A DNA stretch of 26,262 nt from a virus: positions 1 to 26,262 of the IMG/VR virus record IMGVR_UViG_3300018424_000204. One strand, 5' to 3'. Below, piece after piece: positions 16,325-26,262 of the stretch. A program made the position numbers and the translations under genes. Within the stretch, counting starts at the first letter, position 1, and every line of letters starts with the position of its first letter. The notes beneath the pieces were generated by a model. The model was not told the DNA's origin. It saw only the letters and a program-made list of their open reading frames with translations, and searched no databases.

Positions 16325-16332
16325 TATTTATT
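16325..16332 (-). promoter_or_regulatory. Near-consensus late promoter for the 778-residue gene
   Basis: AATAAATA on the minus strand, one base from TATAAATA. It overlaps the stop codon of the preceding gene (TAA at 16331-16333) and lies 26 bases before the ATG at 16298, the same geometry as the exact copies elsewhere. Confidence 0.45.
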
Positions 16333-17416
16333 AGAATGTTCCGCCGGTCAAAGTTTGTGCTGTAACCAAACCTTCTACTGACACCGAGAATTGTTCTGAA
16401 TCAAAGAATACAACACCAGGCGTGTTTGTTGTAGCAGTAGGTACTGCAATTGTCAACTTGTCGCTATCATCACTATAAGTCAGTGTAATTGCCTGCCCTG
16501 CGCGAAGAAGTTGGAAAACATCGCTGTCAATAAACTCGCTGAGGGTTCTGTCTCCAACAAAAATATCTCCGTTGAGTCTTGCAGCCCCGCCAATCGTGAC
16601 ATCAGAATCAACCGAAAGATTTGCAATCGATGCAGAGTCTAACGTAGAAAGACCAGCAACGGTCAGATCATTAGCGACCGTAACACTAGAATCAAATGTT
16701 GCACGACCCGCAACGTTTAGCGTACCATTAATTGTGACATTGTTAAGAATTGCATCACCAGTGGTAATCAATTCATTAATGGTAAGAATGCTAAGAACTT
16801 GCAGATTGTTGATTAGCGCAGAATCACCGACATAAAGCCCGCTGATATTTGCGCTGTCAGCAAAGAGTGCGTCAGAACGAAGTGTATCGACGCTACCAGT
16901 AGAGTCTACAATAATAGCGCTAGAAGCAGTCAGTGTGCCATGCGGATGATTGAGCAGATCAGTGAAATACTTACCACCAATGACATCAATTCTTTCTGCT
17001 TGCAGAACACCGTCTACAGAAGAGTCGCCGCCCGCACCAATGAAGAGTCGATCACCACCTGCACCAAAGCCGTCTGCAGCGCTTCCAGAATCTGAGAAGT
17101 AAGAATATGCAAGTTCGCCAGTGCGCAGCACCAGCGGGTCGCCAGCAGTGCCAGAGCGACGAATAAGAATCTGTGCGCGATCAGAGTCAGAAGGATATGT
17201 ACGCCCATCGATAATTTGCTTCGACAGCGTAAGAACAGGGCGCCAAGTTTCGGTGTCAGAGTCATATGCAAACAGCGAACCGTCAACAGCTCCAGCCGTT
17301 ACAAGACCTGTGATTGCATCGATGTCAGCATTAGAAGAAATAACGGCGGCACGATAAGGCGTACCATATGTTATTTTACTTACGAGTGTTCTACTGCCTA
17401 CTTGTACTATTGACAT
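16331..17416 (-). CDS. Tail fibre-like structural protein
   Basis: 361-residue fibre-like protein. Residues 60-135 contain a fibre module with LTLSKQIIDGRTYPSDSD, LVLRTGELAYSYFSD and GGDRLFIGAGG segments, the last like the NKLYVGDG-type units in phage fibres. Residues 185-290 are a run of short strand repeats (LSILTINELITTGDAILNNV; VTINGTLNVAGRATF; VTVANDLTVAGLSTL; VTIGGAARLNGD), the usual layout of a trimeric beta-structured shaft. The C-terminus ends TNTPGVVFFDSEQFSVSVEG. Asp-Ser pairs are very frequent. The ATG at 17416 has a GAGGT Shine-Dalgarno that overlaps the TGA of the previous gene region, and the two genes are seven bases apart. Exact place in the tail is unknown. Confidence 0.7.
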   Translation of the reverse strand: MSIVQVGSRTLVSKITYGTPYRAAVISSNADIDAITGLVTAGAVDGSLFAYDSDTETWRPVLTLSKQIIDGRTYPSDSDRAQILIRRSGTAGDPLVLRTGELAYSYFSDSGSAADGFGAGGDRLFIGAGGDSSVDGVLQAERIDVIGGKYFTDLLNHPHGTLTASSAIIVDSTGSVDTLRSDALFADSANISGLYVGDSALINNLQVLSILTINELITTGDAILNNVTINGTLNVAGRATFDSSVTVANDLTVAGLSTLDSASIANLSVDSDVTIGGAARLNGDIFVGDRTLSEFIDSDVFQLLRAGQAITLTYSDDSDKLTIAVPTATTNTPGVVFFDSEQFSVSVEGLVTAQTLTGGTF

Positions 17417-17423
17417 GCTGACC

Positions 17424-17777
17424 TCATGTTACCGAAGGAGTTACAGTGATAAGCCCTTCAAGAACTCTTTCTACGATTACGTTAGAATCGCTATCCATGT
17501 ACGATATTTCCATATCATAAACGTAGCGTCTTCTACTATTTAGCGTACTTGTAACAGTGTTTGAAAGAGACAGATTCACAATACCGGCAGAAGTAGGTAC
17601 GGTAACATAAGCAGTGAATGGAATTTTATCAGAGTCTGAGACATCGTACCGCGTACTCATTTTAGCCGCAGCAGAAAATCCAGATAAATCTTTTGGAGAG
17701 CCATCGACATTTGTGAGATAGACATCTAGAGAAACGTCAGATCCCTGATCAATGGTCAATTCTTCATATCTTGCCAT
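17424..17777 (-). CDS. Small Ig-like baseplate/fibre-associated protein
   Basis: 117-residue all-beta protein. The pattern LTIDQGSDVSLDVYLTNVDG, then PKDLSGFSAAAKMSTRYD, then SAGIVNLSLSNTVTSTL, then a final VERVLEGLITVTP strand resembles the N-terminal BppU-like domain found in baseplate upper proteins and in small proteins of marine T4-like phages. It probably bridges fibres or baseplate parts; no enzymatic residue is evident. The start codon lies inside the 3-prime arm of an eight-base inverted repeat placed just after a perfect late promoter, and only a weak GAGA can serve as Shine-Dalgarno. The fold call is by resemblance only. Confidence 0.65.
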   Translation of the reverse strand: MARYEELTIDQGSDVSLDVYLTNVDGSPKDLSGFSAAAKMSTRYDVSDSDKIPFTAYVTVPTSAGIVNLSLSNTVTSTLNSRRRYVYDMEISYMDSDSNVIVERVLEGLITVTPSVT

Positions 17778-17824: not shown

Positions 17825-18499
17825 TTAGGCGTGAATGTCTTCAATAATCCAATCTTGAATGCCTTGTGACATTTCAGATCGATCAAGCACAAACGCGATT
17901 GTCATTCGTAGAGAGTCATTGGTTCTTGCTGTGTGATAAACTAATTTTTCTTCGGGATCTTCATACGCACCGAAGTACCCTGCTTTACATTGCCATCCTT
18001 TAACATCGGGAATGACAACCATTTCTTTCTTCTCATTGTCCCAGTGTTTCCAGTATCCGTCTCCTGTATCACTCCATGTGAAAATGAAGTTGAACGCAGA
18101 AGCATTGGCATTGTTATGCCAAGAAATATAACCCCCAGGAGGATACACACTAAACAGTGCATTTCTTTTTAAATTAAAAGTGGTCTGTATCTTTGTCAAA
18201 AAACTTTCTAGATGAGAAGACACAGCTCCAATTTTTTGTGTTACTTCATTTCCTCTTGCAAAATTTAACTTACCTACAGCAAACGAATGTGAAGTAACAA
18301 TTTCAGGAAATCCATTATGATTTCTTCCCATTGATTTCACAACATCAAAGTATTCATCGCCTGTGTAGTAATCAGCATCTTTCTTAGTAAGTCTTTTTTC
18401 GCAACCACAAACCACAGATTTGTAATTTTCGTCTTGCACAAACCATAGCGACTCGTTTAAAATGTCAAGAGCAAAATCATTTAAAGGAATATCTTTCAT
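17825..18499 (-). CDS. 2-oxoglutarate/Fe(II) oxygenase-like protein
   Basis: 224 residues. The C-terminal half has the layout of the 2OG-Fe(II) oxygenases common in marine T4-like phages: SVYPPGGYISWHNNANASAF (about 117-136), FTWSDTGDGYWKHWD, a GWQCKAGYFGAYED turn, and VYHTARTNDSLRMTIAFVLD (about 187-206). By position, His128 and His189 would be iron ligands and Arg198 would bind the 2OG carboxylate. The expected Asp of the HxD motif reads Asn (HNN, 128-130), so the iron site may be altered or the Asp supplied elsewhere. The target is unknown; proteins, lipids or nucleotides are all possible. The ATG follows the glycosyltransferase stop directly (TAAATG), so the pair is probably made together, though a late promoter core within that gene could add a separate transcript. 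Confidence 0.75.
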   Translation of the reverse strand: MKDIPLNDFALDILNESLWFVQDENYKSVVCGCEKRLTKKDADYYTGDEYFDVVKSMGRNHNGFPEIVTSHSFAVGKLNFARGNEVTQKIGAVSSHLESFLTKIQTTFNLKRNALFSVYPPGGYISWHNNANASAFNFIFTWSDTGDGYWKHWDNEKKEMVVIPDVKGWQCKAGYFGAYEDPEEKLVYHTARTNDSLRMTIAFVLDRSEMSQGIQDWIIEDIHA

Positions 18500-19231
18500 T
18501 TAAAACTCTTCGTGTTTGGCAGATGCGGCTGAATAATGCCTAATCACCACTGGCTTAATATTGTGCTGATATTTATACCGCGAAAAAAAGTTCCATCTAG
18601 CGTCATCTTCAAAGATGCCTACTTTTAAATTTTGATACTTTGGTTCTTTCTTGACAAGCCACCAGAGCGAGAACTGGTCCCATCTTGAAAGTGATCGTGG
18701 ATAAGTATGAGTATCCCAAGTGCCGTCACTCTTTGTCGGCCACCATGTTCCTGCATATTGTCTTACGGTCAAATCATACCAATCATTCATAAACTCACGC
18801 ACTAGAGGATTGCGCATGTCATAGAGACAAACAGCACCACATAATTCAAATTGACCAGCCGGGAACTTCAGTTCAGCATAACAATAAGAGCGCTCTTCAG
18901 GCAGACCAGTAAACAGTACGTCATAGTCGCCTAGTTCATCAAAGACATGTTCAATGTCTTCATGCTCTACTTCTGTGTCTGCATCGATATAGAAGCTAAG
19001 ATCCCACGGTGATTTTGCCATACCCCAAAGCTTTGCGCGACGATGATCATCACACAAAACAATTTCGTCAGCAATTGATTCTCGCCCGTCAAGAAACTTT
19101 TCTTCTGTGACTAGGCAGACTTTTGCTTCGGGATAGAAGTCGCGAATAGATTTGATCAAATTTAAAGCAGAGACATAGAAGAAGCTTCGGCGCGACGCTA
19201 CAACAACGTATCCTTTACTCGGCTCGCTCAC
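18500..19231 (-). CDS. GT-A-type glycosyltransferase
   Basis: 243 residues from a GTG start. YVVVASRRSFFYVSALNLIK (8-27) forms the first strand and helix of a Rossmann-like GT-A fold. WDLSFYIDADTEVEH (76-90) carries the DxD metal/nucleotide-sugar motif (Asp83, Asp85) in the FYIDADT form typical of GT8-like and phage enzymes. FELCGAVCLYDMRNPLVREF (128-147) and RWDQFSLWWLV (183-193) fit the acceptor side. The likely role is sugar transfer to a virion protein or a host surface glycan; donor and acceptor are unknown. The frame is open to a TTG at 19246, but the GTG at 19231 has a GGAG nine bases upstream and is preferred; either way it overlaps the preceding gene in another frame. It directly precedes the oxygenase-like gene. 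Confidence 0.8.
   Translation of the reverse strand: MSEPSKGYVVVASRRSFFYVSALNLIKSIRDFYPEAKVCLVTEEKFLDGRESIADEIVLCDDHRRAKLWGMAKSPWDLSFYIDADTEVEHEDIEHVFDELGDYDVLFTGLPEERSYCYAELKFPAGQFELCGAVCLYDMRNPLVREFMNDWYDLTVRQYAGTWWPTKSDGTWDTHTYPRSLSRWDQFSLWWLVKKEPKYQNLKVGIFEDDARWNFFSRYKYQHNIKPVVIRHYSAASAKHEEF
18570..18577 (-). promoter_or_regulatory. Late promoter core inside the glycosyltransferase gene
   Basis: Exact TATAAATA on the minus strand within the last 80 bases of the glycosyltransferase coding region, 70 bases before the oxygenase-like gene. It could give that gene a separate late transcript. It encodes a YKYQHN-type stretch as protein, so chance occurrence is possible. Confidence 0.5.
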
Positions 19232-19691
19232 TAGATTTGTCTCCAAACATACCCAATTCTTTTGCGATTAGAATGGTTGCAAGTGCATTCATTTCAACTT
19301 CGTTTTTTGCGCGGCGAAGTTTTGTGCGTAGAACACGATCATTTGAGTTTTTAATTTCATCAATCTCAAACGCTTGAAGTTTTAGATTAAAAAGTTTTTC
19401 TAGCTGAGCAGTCTTTTGCTTCTGTTCAGCGATAGCTCTTTTTTCTTTTTCTTCGCGGTTCTTTCTTTCTTTACGCTCTGCAGTGTTCTGATCTATTCTT
19501 TGAATACCAAACTTTTCGACAACTTCTTTGTAGTTCGGGCATTCAGAACCATCAGGGCGAGTCTTCTTAAATTGAAGAACATCTTTTTTCTTTTTATTAG
19601 ACTGTTCATCTATCGTGGTCAGTCTAATACATTTAACTATTGATCTATCTTCAGTTTCCCAATATGCATTATCCAGATATTCATATTTCAT
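19215..19691 (-). CDS. Basic coiled-coil protein of unknown function
   Basis: 158 residues; I do not recognise a named family, though similar small proteins occur beside structural genes of marine T4-like phages. Residues 1-60 (YEYLDNAYWETEDRSIVKCI, then TIDEQSNKKKKDVLQFKKTR) look like a small beta-rich domain with a Lys-rich loop. Residues 67-110 (NTAERKERKNREEKEKRAIA and following) form a highly charged helix or coiled coil, and 110-150 another helix (LRRAKNEVEMNALATILIAK). Its placement between the octad-repeat protein and the glycosyltransferase suggests an assembly or chaperone role, which is inference only. The ATG at 19691 has a GAGG that overlaps the preceding stop. Confidence 0.65.
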   Translation of the reverse strand: MKYEYLDNAYWETEDRSIVKCIRLTTIDEQSNKKKKDVLQFKKTRPDGSECPNYKEVVEKFGIQRIDQNTAERKERKNREEKEKRAIAEQKQKTAQLEKLFNLKLQAFEIDEIKNSNDRVLRTKLRRAKNEVEMNALATILIAKELGMFGDKSSERAE

Positions 19692-19694
19692 AAA

Positions 19695-22600
19695 TTACCT
19701 CACAATCAAAGCCAATCCATCCGACAGAATCATTGCATCAGCACCCAAGGGAGCAAAGATGAGAGACTGCGCAGTTGTTCGCACATACAGCGTATAAGTC
19801 TCAAGTTTAACAGGCGTTGAGAGTCGCTGCCCTTCATCCAAATACGGTCCAACATCAGTATCATACACTGCATACTCATTACTATATTCAGCAGTATATG
19901 TCGCACCTTCATAATCAGTAGTATATGTTTCAATAATATCAGTACCAACATACTCTGCAGTATAATCTCCTTCGTATGTCAGACCTTCATAGTTTGGTGT
20001 ATAGTCACCAATGTACGATATTGAAACTGTTCTTGTGTACTCAGAAGTGTAGTCACCAACATATGTAGATATGTAGTCAGCAGAAAAATCGCCAGTATAA
20101 TTTTCACTGAACTTTCCAATGTATACAGCATCAGATTCACTAGCGTAATCGCCAAGATAGGTTGTTTCACTTTCACTGGTGTAAACTGCATCAGATTCGC
20201 TGACATATTCGCCTTCGTATACTAACTCACTTTCACTTTCATAGTTTGCGCTGAAATCACCAGTGTAAGTTGCATCAGATTCACTGGTATAATTACCTTC
20301 GTAATTTATTTCAGCGTCAGTAATGTAATCTATAGTTGATTCGCTGGTGTAAGTACCTTCATAGTTTATGAATACTGGACCAGCATAGTCACCAATATAA
20401 TCTATGTCGATTGAAGTGGCACCACTGCTCAGTGCTGTACACGAACCAGACGCACCACCGGGGCTTGCTGCATAAATAAAACCTGAATAAGTTGATCCAG
20501 ATACAAAGCCAAAACTAAATCCTGTCTTATTGCTGAGAGGCGGGTTTTCTAATCTAAATCCAGATTTTCTTAAGAAAGTGCTTCCGCCAACAGTTTCATA
20601 AACATACCAATTATAACCAGGATTGGCAAATATAAACTGATACGACCAACCAGGCGGGGCTGAATATGTCAGATGAGTGTAAGTACCGATGTAGTTTTCT
20701 TGAGGCAGTCCTACATAATCGCCTTCATATACTGCTGAACTTTCGCTTGTATAAACAGCATCAGATTCGCTCGTATATGTGCCTTGATAAGTTATAGAAC
20801 TTTCACTAGTATAATCGGCTGTTGAGTCACCAGTGTAATCTGCAATGTAATCAATGGTGCTTTCGCTGGTGTAGTCTGCGCTGAAGTCACCAGTGTAATC
20901 AATTGTGCTTTCGCTAGTATACGGTTGATTATAAGTCGCAGTGCTTTCGCTGGTGTAATCTGCGCTAAAGTCGCCAGTGTAAATAATACCAGATTCGCTA
21001 ACGTATTCGCCTTGATATACTGCAGAGCTTTCGCTTGTATAATCAGCGCTGAAATCTTTTATGTAGTCTATTGTACTTTCACTGGTATAATCAGCGCTAA
21101 AATCACCAGTGTAAGTTATTGAGCTTTCACTGGTATAATCAGCGCTAAAATCACCAGTGTAAGTTATTGAGCTTTCACTGGTGTATGTTGCACTAGATAG
21201 TACTCGGAAAAGTCCGACACTAATTTGATCACCTCTATAGTATCCAGTAGTCCCTATTTGTTGACCAGAAATAACCGGATATCCATTGAATCCTATGCCA
21301 GACCCAGAAAGTGTTCCACCAAAAGTATAATTGTAAACACTTGAATCCCCTTCTTCAGGATCAATGCTTACTGTAGCGCCAGAAACTTCAGAAAGACCAA
21401 TATAATCCGTAGTAAATTCTTTTGCATAACCTATTGAACTTTCGCTAGTATAAGTTGCACTGAACTCTTTTGCATAACCTATCGAACTTTCGCTAGTATA
21501 AGTTGCGCTAAAATCACCGGTATAAGTTATTGTACTATCACCAGCGTAATCAGCAGAAAAATCACCAGTATAGTCACCAGTGTAAGTTTCGGTGAAATCA
21601 CCTAGATAATCTATTGTGCTTTCGCTTGTATATGTCGCACTAAATTCTTTGACATATCCTGCTACATAATCAGCAAGAAAATCACCGGTGTAAACTATAC
21701 TGCTATTACCTTCGTATGTTGCACTAAAGTCTTTAACGTAAGTAACGCCAGTGTAATCAGCAGAAAAATCACCGGTATAATCAGCAGTAAATTCTTTTGC
21801 GTAATCGCCCACATAATCTGCGCTGAAGTCGCCAGTGTAATCAGCAGAGAATTCAAGTGTGTACTCACCAGTATAGGTAACAAATACGCTAGGACCTTGA
21901 TAATCGCCTACATAGTCGGCACTAAATTCTTTAGTATAATCACCTACATACAGCCCAGAATAATCACCAACATATTCTGCAGTAAACTCTTTAATGTAAT
22001 CTGCTGTGCTTTCGCTCGTATAGACTGCTTGGAAATCACCAGTGTAATCACCGATAAATGTTGCCGTGAAATCACCAGTATAATCAGCAGAGAATTCGGT
22101 CGTGTAATCGCCAATATAAGTTGCGTCAAAATCACCAGTGTATGGAAGTTCTGATTCGCTAGTATAATCTACAGAGCTTTCGCTTGTATAAGTAGCGCCT
22201 TCGTAGTCACCAGAATATGTCAGCAGTATATCAACGCCTTCATATTCTGCGGTATATGTTTCAAGAATATCAGAACCTTGATATGTGCCTACATAATCGC
22301 CAACATAAGTTTCTTCGTATGTTGGGCTATAATTACCTTCGTATTCTGCTGTGTAATCAGCAACGTAAGGTTCAACGTAGTCTATTTCGAAGAGCGCAAG
22401 ACCAAGATAGTTTTGATCTTCTTCGTATTCTCTTACGGTGTTAACAGCAGAACCTTTTGCGAGCCAGATACCGGCTTCAGTTGGCGGCCCTTGTTCAGAA
22501 GAGCGCAGTTGATATGTCCCGATCTTTGTGGACATGATCAGACTCTTCATTCGCTCACCGAATGTAAATTCAATTTCGGGGTCTGTCAGTTCTTTGATGC

Positions 22601-23654
22601 CCGCAAATACACCACTGAGTCTGAAAGGCGCTAGAGGGCGAACAGTCGACGGAATAGCTTCTGCTTCTTGCTTGATCCAGATAGAATAACTTAGCTCGGA
22701 GCCATCGCTTCGCGTATCGACAAAAACGTCTTCAAGAAATACTGCCCAGTTTGATCCAGGTGAAACCGAAGCGAGTTTAAACGTACCAGGATAATCGTTC
22801 TGAAAAATAGACGATAGAAGTCTTGTACAAATTAAATCAAGTTCGAAGTCATTAACTTCTCTCAGACCAGCAGGATCAAGGTCTTTGTCCCAGAAGAATG
22901 GATTTCTTTTAAAAGAACTTTCTGTGATAATACTTGCAACGCTAGAATCGTTTTGATACAGATCATAGACATCTGTACTACTAGCAGGTCTTTGCTGAGG
23001 CTCGACGCGAACAGTACCAAGATAGAGACTATCGTTCGAAGTCTGAACAGGATTATTCAGATCAGTAGCAGCAGCATTGACAATAATGTCAAGCAGACCT
23101 TCTTGAGTTGGCTGAATTCTAAAAGTAGCACGATATAGAGAGTTTAGAGACGCATTCTCAAAATCTTCCCACGTTACTTCAGTTTGTGTGGTGTTAGTAG
23201 CAGCAGGTTCTGCAAAAGAAGATTGTGTGCGCAGGGCAGAACCAGACAAGTTTATCTGGTATTCAATTTCATTGAATCCAGTACCTGTGTGAAGAACGTT
23301 ACCAACAACAACAATATCAAGAACATCACCAACGAAAATTGTTGAAGGAAGTGATGTGTATACTGCATCAAATGTAGTTGCGTGAGTAGAATTGTCTGGT
23401 ACAGAACTGTGAATGACTTCGAAAGTTCTAACATGAGCTTCTTCTAGCGGAACCGTAGAAGTGTCATTATTGTAATAAGTGTTTTCGTATTGACCTATTA
23501 GTGTTGCTGCGGTGTTCGTAGACAGCGCAGAGAGGTCATTAGGCGACATCTTTCCAAGATGAACACCAGCGCGATATGCAAGGTAATCTTCTTCTGTTAG
23601 TAGAAGTTCCTTAAACGCGCCAGAGCCAAAATGTTTGAGAGGTCGTAATGACAT
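19695..23654 (-). CDS. Giant octad-repeat fibre-like protein
   Basis: 1319 residues. Residues 1-425 are a non-repetitive N-terminal part opening with SLRPLKHFGSGAFKELLLTE, probably the virion attachment region. About 426-1265 is an array of eight-residue units, each beginning with Tyr and often with a second aromatic at position 5 and Asp or Glu at 4 and 8. The main types are YTGDFSAD, YTSESTID and Y(I/A/V/T)KEFSAD. I count 19 TSES, 14 TGDF and 8 KEF/KDF cores. Two non-repeat inserts break the array at about 752-820 and 990-1090. Residues 1266-1319 form a C-terminal cap. Aromatic-acidic short repeats of this kind occur in some marine phage structural proteins; their fold is not established to my knowledge, and a beta-solenoid is plausible. 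A late promoter precedes the ATG; the Shine-Dalgarno is weak. Confidence 0.82.
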   Translation of the reverse strand: MSLRPLKHFGSGAFKELLLTEEDYLAYRAGVHLGKMSPNDLSALSTNTAATLIGQYENTYYNNDTSTVPLEEAHVRTFEVIHSSVPDNSTHATTFDAVYTSLPSTIFVGDVLDIVVVGNVLHTGTGFNEIEYQINLSGSALRTQSSFAEPAATNTTQTEVTWEDFENASLNSLYRATFRIQPTQEGLLDIIVNAAATDLNNPVQTSNDSLYLGTVRVEPQQRPASSTDVYDLYQNDSSVASIITESSFKRNPFFWDKDLDPAGLREVNDFELDLICTRLLSSIFQNDYPGTFKLASVSPGSNWAVFLEDVFVDTRSDGSELSYSIWIKQEAEAIPSTVRPLAPFRLSGVFAGIKELTDPEIEFTFGERMKSLIMSTKIGTYQLRSSEQGPPTEAGIWLAKGSAVNTVREYEEDQNYLGLALFEIDYVEPYVADYTAEYEGNYSPTYEETYVGDYVGTYQGSDILETYTAEYEGVDILLTYSGDYEGATYTSESSVDYTSESELPYTGDFDATYIGDYTTEFSADYTGDFTATFIGDYTGDFQAVYTSESTADYIKEFTAEYVGDYSGLYVGDYTKEFSADYVGDYQGPSVFVTYTGEYTLEFSADYTGDFSADYVGDYAKEFTADYTGDFSADYTGVTYVKDFSATYEGNSSIVYTGDFLADYVAGYVKEFSATYTSESTIDYLGDFTETYTGDYTGDFSADYAGDSTITYTGDFSATYTSESSIGYAKEFSATYTSESSIGYAKEFTTDYIGLSEVSGATVSIDPEEGDSSVYNYTFGGTLSGSGIGFNGYPVISGQQIGTTGYYRGDQISVGLFRVLSSATYTSESSITYTGDFSADYTSESSITYTGDFSADYTSESTIDYIKDFSADYTSESSAVYQGEYVSESGIIYTGDFSADYTSESTATYNQPYTSESTIDYTGDFSADYTSESTIDYIADYTGDSTADYTSESSITYQGTYTSESDAVYTSESSAVYEGDYVGLPQENYIGTYTHLTYSAPPGWSYQFIFANPGYNWYVYETVGGSTFLRKSGFRLENPPLSNKTGFSFGFVSGSTYSGFIYAASPGGASGSCTALSSGATSIDIDYIGDYAGPVFINYEGTYTSESTIDYITDAEINYEGNYTSESDATYTGDFSANYESESELVYEGEYVSESDAVYTSESETTYLGDYASESDAVYIGKFSENYTGDFSADYISTYVGDYTSEYTRTVSISYIGDYTPNYEGLTYEGDYTAEYVGTDIIETYTTDYEGATYTAEYSNEYAVYDTDVGPYLDEGQRLSTPVKLETYTLYVRTTAQSLIFAPLGADAMILSDGLALIVR
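19860..22379 (-). repeat. In-gene array of 24/48-base coding repeats
   Basis: Degenerate 24-base units (eight codons) often pair into 48-base units (16 residues, YTGDFSADYTSESxxx). The clearest tandem copies are 21073-21120 and 21121-21168, which differ at two bases; identity continues so that 21076-21134 equals 21124-21182 (59 bases). Two non-repetitive segments interrupt the array, at about 21195-21401 and 20397-20687. Reading frame is kept throughout. Confidence 0.85.
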
Positions 23655-25765: not shown

Positions 25766-25888
25766 TTGACTCCAAACAGAACCTTTCGCTGCATAGTACG
25801 CAAACGCTTTGCTACCTGCGGCAGCCCAGTCATTGGTGTCAATGTCAAGAAGCTTGAACTCACGAATACCAGAACGATATCTTTGCCC

Positions 25889-25891
25889 TTA
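25889..25891 (-). other. In-frame TAA inside a structural gene
   Basis: TAA on the minus strand between ARVKT and GQRYRSG. The frame is open for at least 123 codons before it (to the window edge) and 659 codons after it. TAA ends many normal genes here, so it is not reassigned. A single change from CAA would restore an uninterrupted reading frame. Confidence 0.8.
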
Positions 25892-26262
25892 TGTCTTAAC
25901 TCTTGCTTTTTGATTTACTTTAGAAAGATAGAAGTCAGGTGTAATGTTAGGCACAAAGAAAGAACCAATGATTTCACCATTCGCGTCAGAGATAAGATCG
26001 GTAGATCCGCTTGGGTGTGCAGTGATTGCTTGGTGAGTACGCTGGTTACCGTTGTCATCTGTGCGATCAGAGAACTGCACAAACGTGGCTTCTTGACGAC
26101 ACCACTGTGTCACCTTCTCGCCATCAAAGAACGGAGTGAACTTGGTGTTTGGCTTCAAGCCCTTTGCATGGAAGTAAATCTTTCTAGAACGAATCCATGG
26201 AATCAAGGCAAGATCAACAATTCGCTTACCTACAGTTTCGCGCAGAGTGTCAGAAGGAACAA
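25889..26262 (-). CDS. Large virion structural protein, part before in-frame stop (5-prime end outside window)
   Basis: The frame is open from the right edge of the window (PSDTLRETVGKRIVDLALIP and on) to the TAA at 25889-25891, so the true start lies outside. The segments IPWIRSRKIYFHAKGLKPNT and FTPFFDGEKVTQWC match the IPYxRSRxVxFxxxGLKPNTxxxxFFDG motif of a very large structural protein of marine T4-like phages. ANGEIIGSFFVPN is the beginning of a small beta domain that normally runs on without a break into an FRTGxREFKL-type segment, here found after the stop. The TTG at 26206 is not a plausible start because the preceding codons look like the same protein. It forms one gene with the downstream part. 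Confidence 0.75.
   Translation of the reverse strand, partial: VPSDTLRETVGKRIVDLALIPWIRSRKIYFHAKGLKPNTKFTPFFDGEKVTQWCRQEATFVQFSDRTDDNGNQRTHQAITAHPSGSTDLISDANGEIIGSFFVPNITPDFYLSKVNQKARVKT

Follow-up and report, generated by a model that had tools for sequence, protein, structure and literature searches.

What kind of phage protein devotes some 840 of its residues to short Tyr-led units that succeed one another like a written code rather than as a uniform repeat? The question is raised by a gene of 1,319 codons plus a stop on the minus strand (positions 19695-23654) of the IMG/VR virus record IMGVR_UViG_3300018424_000204; the whole stretch analysed, positions 1 to 26,262 of that record, is referred to below as the window. 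Comparison of the encoded protein with its relatives, including the full-length homologues L009 and WJE88074.1 of phage C48C1, makes it very probable that the octad array forms a self-complementary antiparallel β hairpin that serves as the shaft of an exceptionally long fibre of the phage, most probably a tail adhesin.

The initial annotation placed the array in one Tyr register with alternating core types, and this description holds in part. Between residues ~426 and 1265, Tyr recurs at a spacing of 8 (56 times) or 4 (40 times), and the cores TSES (~23 copies), TGDF (~15) and KEF/KDF (~11) follow each other in irregular order. However, segmentation with a tetrad hidden Markov model (HMM) trained by expectation maximization (EM) revealed two non-octad domains, at residues ~758-820 and ~993-1090, which break the register. 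The repeat is in fact built of tetrads, which also occur singly (YxGD, YVGD, YQGT), and register shifts of one residue are present. In the family-wide EM-trained model, tetrad position 1 is Tyr or Phe (also Arg or Ser), position 2 Thr, Ala, Val or Ser, position 3 Gly or Arg and position 4 Asn, Thr or Asp; in the geometry of a β strand, positions 1 and 3 point to one side and positions 2 and 4 to the other. The array is indeed strand-friendly, very acidic (145 Asp/Glu against 16 Lys/Arg over the 840 residues) and nearly free of Cys, the only one being located in the non-octad domain at 993-1090. The impression of a code is likewise borne out, but mirror pairing dictates the sequence in which the units follow one another.

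Relatives of the protein are found in other aquatic phages, as had been surmised. A degenerate octad pattern matched at least 120 stretches in IMG/VR, and a profile of the N-terminal domains retrieved 132 relatives from the same database, 80 of which were kept, whereas a single record of a collection of 50,697 phage records carries the fibre protein, namely, phage C48C1 (OQ984149), in which the 3,347-aa product WJE88074.1 is annotated merely as hypothetical. The family sample comprises 110 complete proteins, 38 of them non-redundant. In all 110, the N-terminal modules are followed, directly after the motif GTWxxxGTATDTR, by an array of between 179 and 3,067 residues, and a strand of the TIETYTLYVRTA type is present at the C-terminus; the window protein, with its N-terminal module, octad array and C-terminal YTLYVR strand, fits this layout. 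Most relatives carry Asn or Thr and many Arg where the window protein has acidic residues.

The Arg-containing members reveal the pairing code. When residue i is compared with residue C-i, with C set by the two end motifs that bookend the array, Arg lies opposite Tyr or Phe throughout; in most relatives, the partner of Tyr or Phe is Arg or Gly, and Phe is also set against Ser. By simple correlation, the bookend-set C ranks best in 19 of 37 members, and with a pair table learned without the tested member the bookend-set register comes first among 241, to within one or two residues, in 22 of 38 (the apparent misfit of L052 and L172 at register -2 is a one-residue anchor difference). Over the outer quarters of 22 members, 866 Arg-aromatic pairs stand beside only 14 Arg-Arg or Arg-Ser pairs and one aromatic-aromatic pair, compared with 641, 239 and 26, respectively, when the octads of one arm are shuffled; none of 1,000 shuffles came close. 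Because these totals count residues, and the members are related, the pairs cannot be treated as independent; restricting the set to non-redundant proteins and testing each member separately lessens the effect of kinship without removing it. When the two halves are aligned by dynamic programming, 26 of 28 Arg-containing members score higher than every shuffle of their right half.

The effect of inserted or missing segments on the pairing was also examined. In L163 and L060, the alignments show the matching running on to the tip. L169, L155 and L151 carry a domain of ~230 residues in the return arm, and the inner register is shifted by 233, 230 and 229 residues, respectively; the side domain of L169 measures 233 aa, exactly its register shift. 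After the shift, the inner arms of these three proteins contain 59, 80 and 51 Arg-aromatic pairs without a clash. Compared with L047, the return arm of L083 is 24 residues shorter, and from there on its register is displaced by exactly 24. In C48C1, a fold computed by dynamic programming with skips free on either arm comprises 1,059 pairs, of which 187 are Arg-aromatic, and no Arg clash. The outgoing arm of this protein runs unbroken from residue 275 to 1333, the non-array segment 1334-1366 forms the tip, and every skip falls on the return arm, corresponding to a side domain.

The geometry of the arrays leads to the same architecture. Arrays that carry no side domain are interrupted at their midpoint, at 0.50 in L027, L163, L203, L195, L052, L041, L074, L069, L078, L134, L080 and others, and tips at the midpoint as well as turn-like motifs (AGGGK, GGSGGG, STPAPYG) lie at 0.49-0.53 of the array. 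Even where no interruption was called, the midpoint is often a Gly-rich turn, for example, AGGGKGGNAYN. The lengths of the left and right arms, which span 106 to 820 residues in 21 members, are correlated with r=0.9989 and a median difference of 5 residues. Thus, at the level of sequence, the arrays consist of two equal arms related by a mirror code, with a tip between them and side domains that can be placed by the register.

The window protein, L009 and L027 lack Arg, and a separate pairing rule was therefore tested for them. The pairing expected from strand geometry sets TSES octads, with Y, S, S and I as inner residues, against TGDF or KEF octads (Y, G/K, F, A), yielding Y1-G3', S3-Y1', S5-A7' and I7-F5'. 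A register scan of the window protein returned the strongest correlation of Phe with Ile, Leu or Val between the arms at i+j=1575 (0-based; 0.46, the next being 0.32), which, with the side domain set aside, places the mirror centre at residue 788, inside the tip. At this register, all 31 Tyr of the inner segment 637-757 face Gly (13), Ser (11), Lys (5), Gln or Ala, and all 13 Phe face Ile (11) or Ala (2), so that TSES octads are indeed paired with TGDF and KEF octads. Shuffling the octad order at the fixed register gives on average 3.4 Phe-Ile/Leu/Val pairs against the 11 observed, a number reached in none of 50,000 shuffles; when the maximum over all registers is taken for each shuffle, none of 400 reaches the observed 0.459. 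The inner and outer registers differ by ~105 residues because of the side domain at 993-1090.

Accordingly, the gene, all parts of which lie on the minus strand, can be divided as follows. The outgoing arm consists of an outer part (residues 426-594; 21873-22379), of which residues 443-590 align antiparallel with 1244-1095 with a few small bulges, and an inner part (595-757; 21384-21872) that pairs with residues 820-992. The non-octad tip domain (758-820; 21195-21383), the candidate receptor-binding part, is followed by the mirror-paired inner part of the return arm (821-992; 20679-21194), the non-octad side domain (993-1090; 20385-20678) and the outer part of the return arm (1091-1265; 19860-20384), which aligns with the outer outgoing arm. 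Preceding the array, the N-terminal domains (residues 1-425; 22380-23654; alignment A1) start with a conserved EEDYLAY, include a ~150-aa insert also present in L027 and contain two similar modules at ~263-342 and ~352-411, the second of which stops just ahead of the array. The gene ends with a C-terminal segment (19695-19859) bearing the conserved strand LETYTLYVRT, a motif that ends nearly every relative and would close the last N-terminal module. In alignment A1, the array gives the impression of having been inserted into the final copy of this repeated module.

The relative L009 (1,348 aa) differs from the window protein almost exclusively around the tip, and symmetrically so. The two proteins are 91-97% identical away from the tip but only 41-60% identical in the tip region, the tip itself retaining 41% identity, and most of the differences fall between residues 700 and 871, in a block whose middle coincides with the centre of symmetry. 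At its own register, L009 keeps all Phe partners (Ile, Ala, Val) and most Tyr partners of the inner arms. Such a pattern would be expected if a candidate receptor-binding tip had been swapped together with the two adjoining arm segments.

Which other explanations could account for an array of this kind? The initial annotation had considered a Ca2+-dependent solenoid, an elastic tether and an aromatic ladder for glycan binding, none of which is supported in the form proposed. A β solenoid or RTX-like stalk of uniform, Ca2+-binding octads would agree with the regular acidic positions 4 and 8 of the window array, but it predicts neither equal arms nor a central tip nor mirror complementarity, most relatives have Asn, Thr and many Arg in place of the acids, and no Pfam family of such repeats is matched; this idea is hardly tenable. 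The same degree of improbability attaches to a disordered elastic tether or low-complexity linker, the unit order of which would drift by recombination: although the sequence is repetitive, of low complexity and derived from metagenomes, and the confidence of AlphaFold2 models is very low, drift cannot maintain hundreds of cross-arm matches together with equal arm lengths. Least credible of all is that the mirror pattern is a by-product of inverted repeats in the DNA or of assembly. The sequences do come from metagenome contigs, and L083 resembles a 24-aa collapse or deletion; however, the reverse complements of Tyr codons are Val and Ile codons rather than codons for Gly, Arg, Ser or Lys, the gene contains only weak, short inverted repeats, and the pattern is present in the annotated record of phage C48C1 as well as in many independent contigs. 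A glycan-binding aromatic ladder may exist on the faces of the ribbon, but the aromatic residues are already accounted for by their cross-strand partners.

The rival that comes closest to the single-chain hairpin is an antiparallel homodimer, in which residue i would pair with residue C-i of a second chain to give a two-headed fibre. Pairing between two chains would produce the same mirror code and thus weighs against the single-chain hairpin, but a dimer has no need of a central turn or domain, yet precisely there Gly-rich turns, loops or domains of up to 165 aa are found, and it would place N-terminal domains at both ends, which is odd for a tail fibre; we regard it as improbable. Other observations also count against the hairpin. 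The outer arms of the window protein need a few bulges, and in the swapped block of L009 and its neighbourhood about one-third of the Tyr face Thr, Glu, Asp, Val or Asn at one fixed register, so that small slips have to be assumed there. The Arg code did not appear at the predicted register in L015, L030, L200, L024, L037, L049 and others. AlphaFold2 models of window residues 335-1319, based on 2 sequences, and of L134, based on 10, reached a mean pLDDT of only 31.8 and 27.9, respectively; these predictions are uninformative and count neither way, and because both models are unusable, the strands, the trimer and the fibre length are derived indirectly. The presence of the protein in the virion and its binding to a receptor are presumed.

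The single-chain hairpin invites comparison with the long tail fibre of phage T4. Each chain of T4 gp37 goes out, forms a head and comes back, and the core of the needle is held by HxH-bound iron. The gp37 tip is a six-stranded antiparallel needle with a head carrying a putative receptor-binding domain (Bartual et al., 2010; PMC9659904), and its receptor-binding region is only ~215 residues long (PMC9659904). The proteins described here share the out-and-back course with both ends at the base, which in their case is read from the mirror code, the equal arms and the bookends. By contrast, their arms measure 106-1,059 residues and follow a code of aromatic residues opposite Gly, Ser, Lys or Arg; the array of the window protein has no HxH ladder (one His in the array region, and none in the family tetrad profile), and neither the full protein nor the N-terminal profile shows a detectable relation to the solved gp37 in searches of PDB sequences. 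The hairpin fibre works like the T4 gp37 needle in outline but is not a member of the same group.

On this model, the chain would leave the base as one long strand, turn at a tip bearing the receptor-binding part and come back as a return strand hydrogen-bonded to the outgoing one, the C-terminal strand completing the last N-terminal module. Three such chains would probably assemble into a shaft resembling the T4 gp37 needle with its out-and-back course. With an extension of ~0.33 nm per residue, the window arm of ~330 residues would extend over ~110 nm and that of C48C1 over ~350 nm.

Existing libraries do not cover this family. The window fibre protein matched no Pfam family at E<=1, and searches of Pfam, PHROGs, NCBIfam and PDB sequences returned nothing relevant and no characterized repeat family, in agreement with the earlier remark that no solved structure is known. 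The N-terminal domains have no match in Pfam, PHROGs or PDB sequences, their profile has no relevant PDB match, and the side domain at 993-1090 has none in Pfam or PHROGs; the octads are weakly similar to PHROGs of unknown function, whereas the N-terminal modules, tip and side domain match no sequence family. Matches of the fibre protein to pyruvate carboxylase and to head-morphogenesis proteins were dismissed as chance, and one to Enterococcus phage Riverwalk was rejected as a low-complexity repeat (FATCYLGD) between annotated genes. The open-access literature yielded no description of such repeats, and none of the described protein families known to us follows a residue-pairing rule of this kind. 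The hairpin-fibre family is widespread yet undescribed: neither Pfam nor PHROGs, nor any solved structure or publication that we found, covers it.

The gene neighbourhood places the protein in a T4-like tail module. The 26-kb record encodes a tail sheath, a terminase, a sheath stabilizer, neck proteins and several tail fibres, and its terminase is closest to that of C48C1 (75%), followed by cyanophages (<48%); psbA, considered as a sign of a cyanobacterial host, was found in none of eight large records. The window fibre resembles the PHROG-annotated T4-like tail fibres of the same record in its tail-module context, its long modular build and a nearby fibre assembly protein, but differs from them in that its N-terminal modules, tip and side domain match no family. 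With C48C1 WJE88074.1, the window protein shares the family, the gene neighbourhood and the mirror hairpin, the C48C1 protein being distinguished by its Arg-type code and several side domains in the return arm.

All the neighbouring genes described below are on the minus strand. Of the 110 loci in which the fibre gene is complete, 97 encode a relative of a 158-aa companion (19215-19691), immediately downstream of the fibre gene in most cases and ~2.5-3.8 kb further on where another gene lies between them. The companion is followed by a predicted GT-A-like glycosyltransferase of 248 aa (18500-19246; 93 of 110 loci) with an invariant DxD and by a possible Fe(II)/2-oxoglutarate-type oxygenase of 224 aa (17825-18499; 91 of 110), recognized solely by its conserved H128, H189 and R198. 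The former assignment is based on the invariant DxD and on Pfam GT2, which 7 of 19 relatives match (with an E of 4e-4 at best), although the window copy itself has no Pfam match; the oxygenase-like protein matches neither Pfam nor PDB. The order of the three genes is kept, and loci without them are mostly short-flanked. A tblastn search of the phage records with the window glycosyltransferase returned only C48C1, and the cassette therefore seems tied to the fibre, which among these records is likewise found in C48C1 alone. It is plausible, though less firmly grounded than the hairpin itself, that the two adjacent enzymes would modify the fibre. Further downstream lies a homologue of 'L-shaped tail fiber protein assembly' PHROGs (17424-17777; phrog_1084, phrog_3304; 71 of 110 loci), and the tail-fibre module also includes a 361-aa protein (16331-17416) with a weak match to bactofilin (E 0.002). 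The upstream neighbour (25766-26262) corresponds to a protein of 1,798 aa in L009 and L010; in the window, only the last 618 aa are open and the frame is broken at about 25765, a frameshift that is either natural or stems from assembly near the contig end.

Several other features of the family were recorded. In the members examined, side domains are on the return arm. A ~230-aa side domain (RYSDQSNLL...VDD) is shared by L155 (1470-1705), L169 (1196-1429), L151 (1121-1347) and L131 (1816-2077; all in protein coordinates) and weakly resembles the host range and adsorption PHROG phrog_5499 (E 5e-4). The 24-residue deletion in L083, which is on the same contig as L175, amounts to three octads and is uncompensated in the other arm; assembly has probably collapsed a repeat here, unless the bulge is natural. 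The L015 family (847-aa members) is divergent, with Gly/Ser-rich octads such as NYSGGYSG, rare Arg and a Gly-rich turn, FFGGF, at the midpoint. Some phages carry two tandem family genes, a short one (about 490-580 aa) and another behind it (L166, L171, L191 and L196-L198). Finally, family members occur on contigs binned into metagenome-assembled genomes of Sphingobacteriales and Thiotrichaceae (L213, L214), possibly as binned phage contigs or as a hint at the hosts.

Taken together, these observations suggest that the family is likely to be a protein counterpart of the nucleic-acid stem-loop, a genetically encoded fibre in which two arms, of up to more than 1,000 residues each, recognize one another by a strict pairing code that compensating changes maintain, in which the tip and the side domains can be exchanged, and which has modifying enzymes of its own. 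If so, the order of the units would become readable: one arm would predict the other, the turn would mark the probable receptor-binding part and side domains could be cut out by eye. The rule that aromatic residues lie opposite Gly, Arg, Ser or Lys and Phe opposite Ile would provide a directly testable principle for the folding of β fibres possibly hundreds of nanometres long, and such self-complementary fibres could serve as a template for programmable ones. For the phages themselves, a large family of aquatic adhesins missed by current libraries would gain a name.

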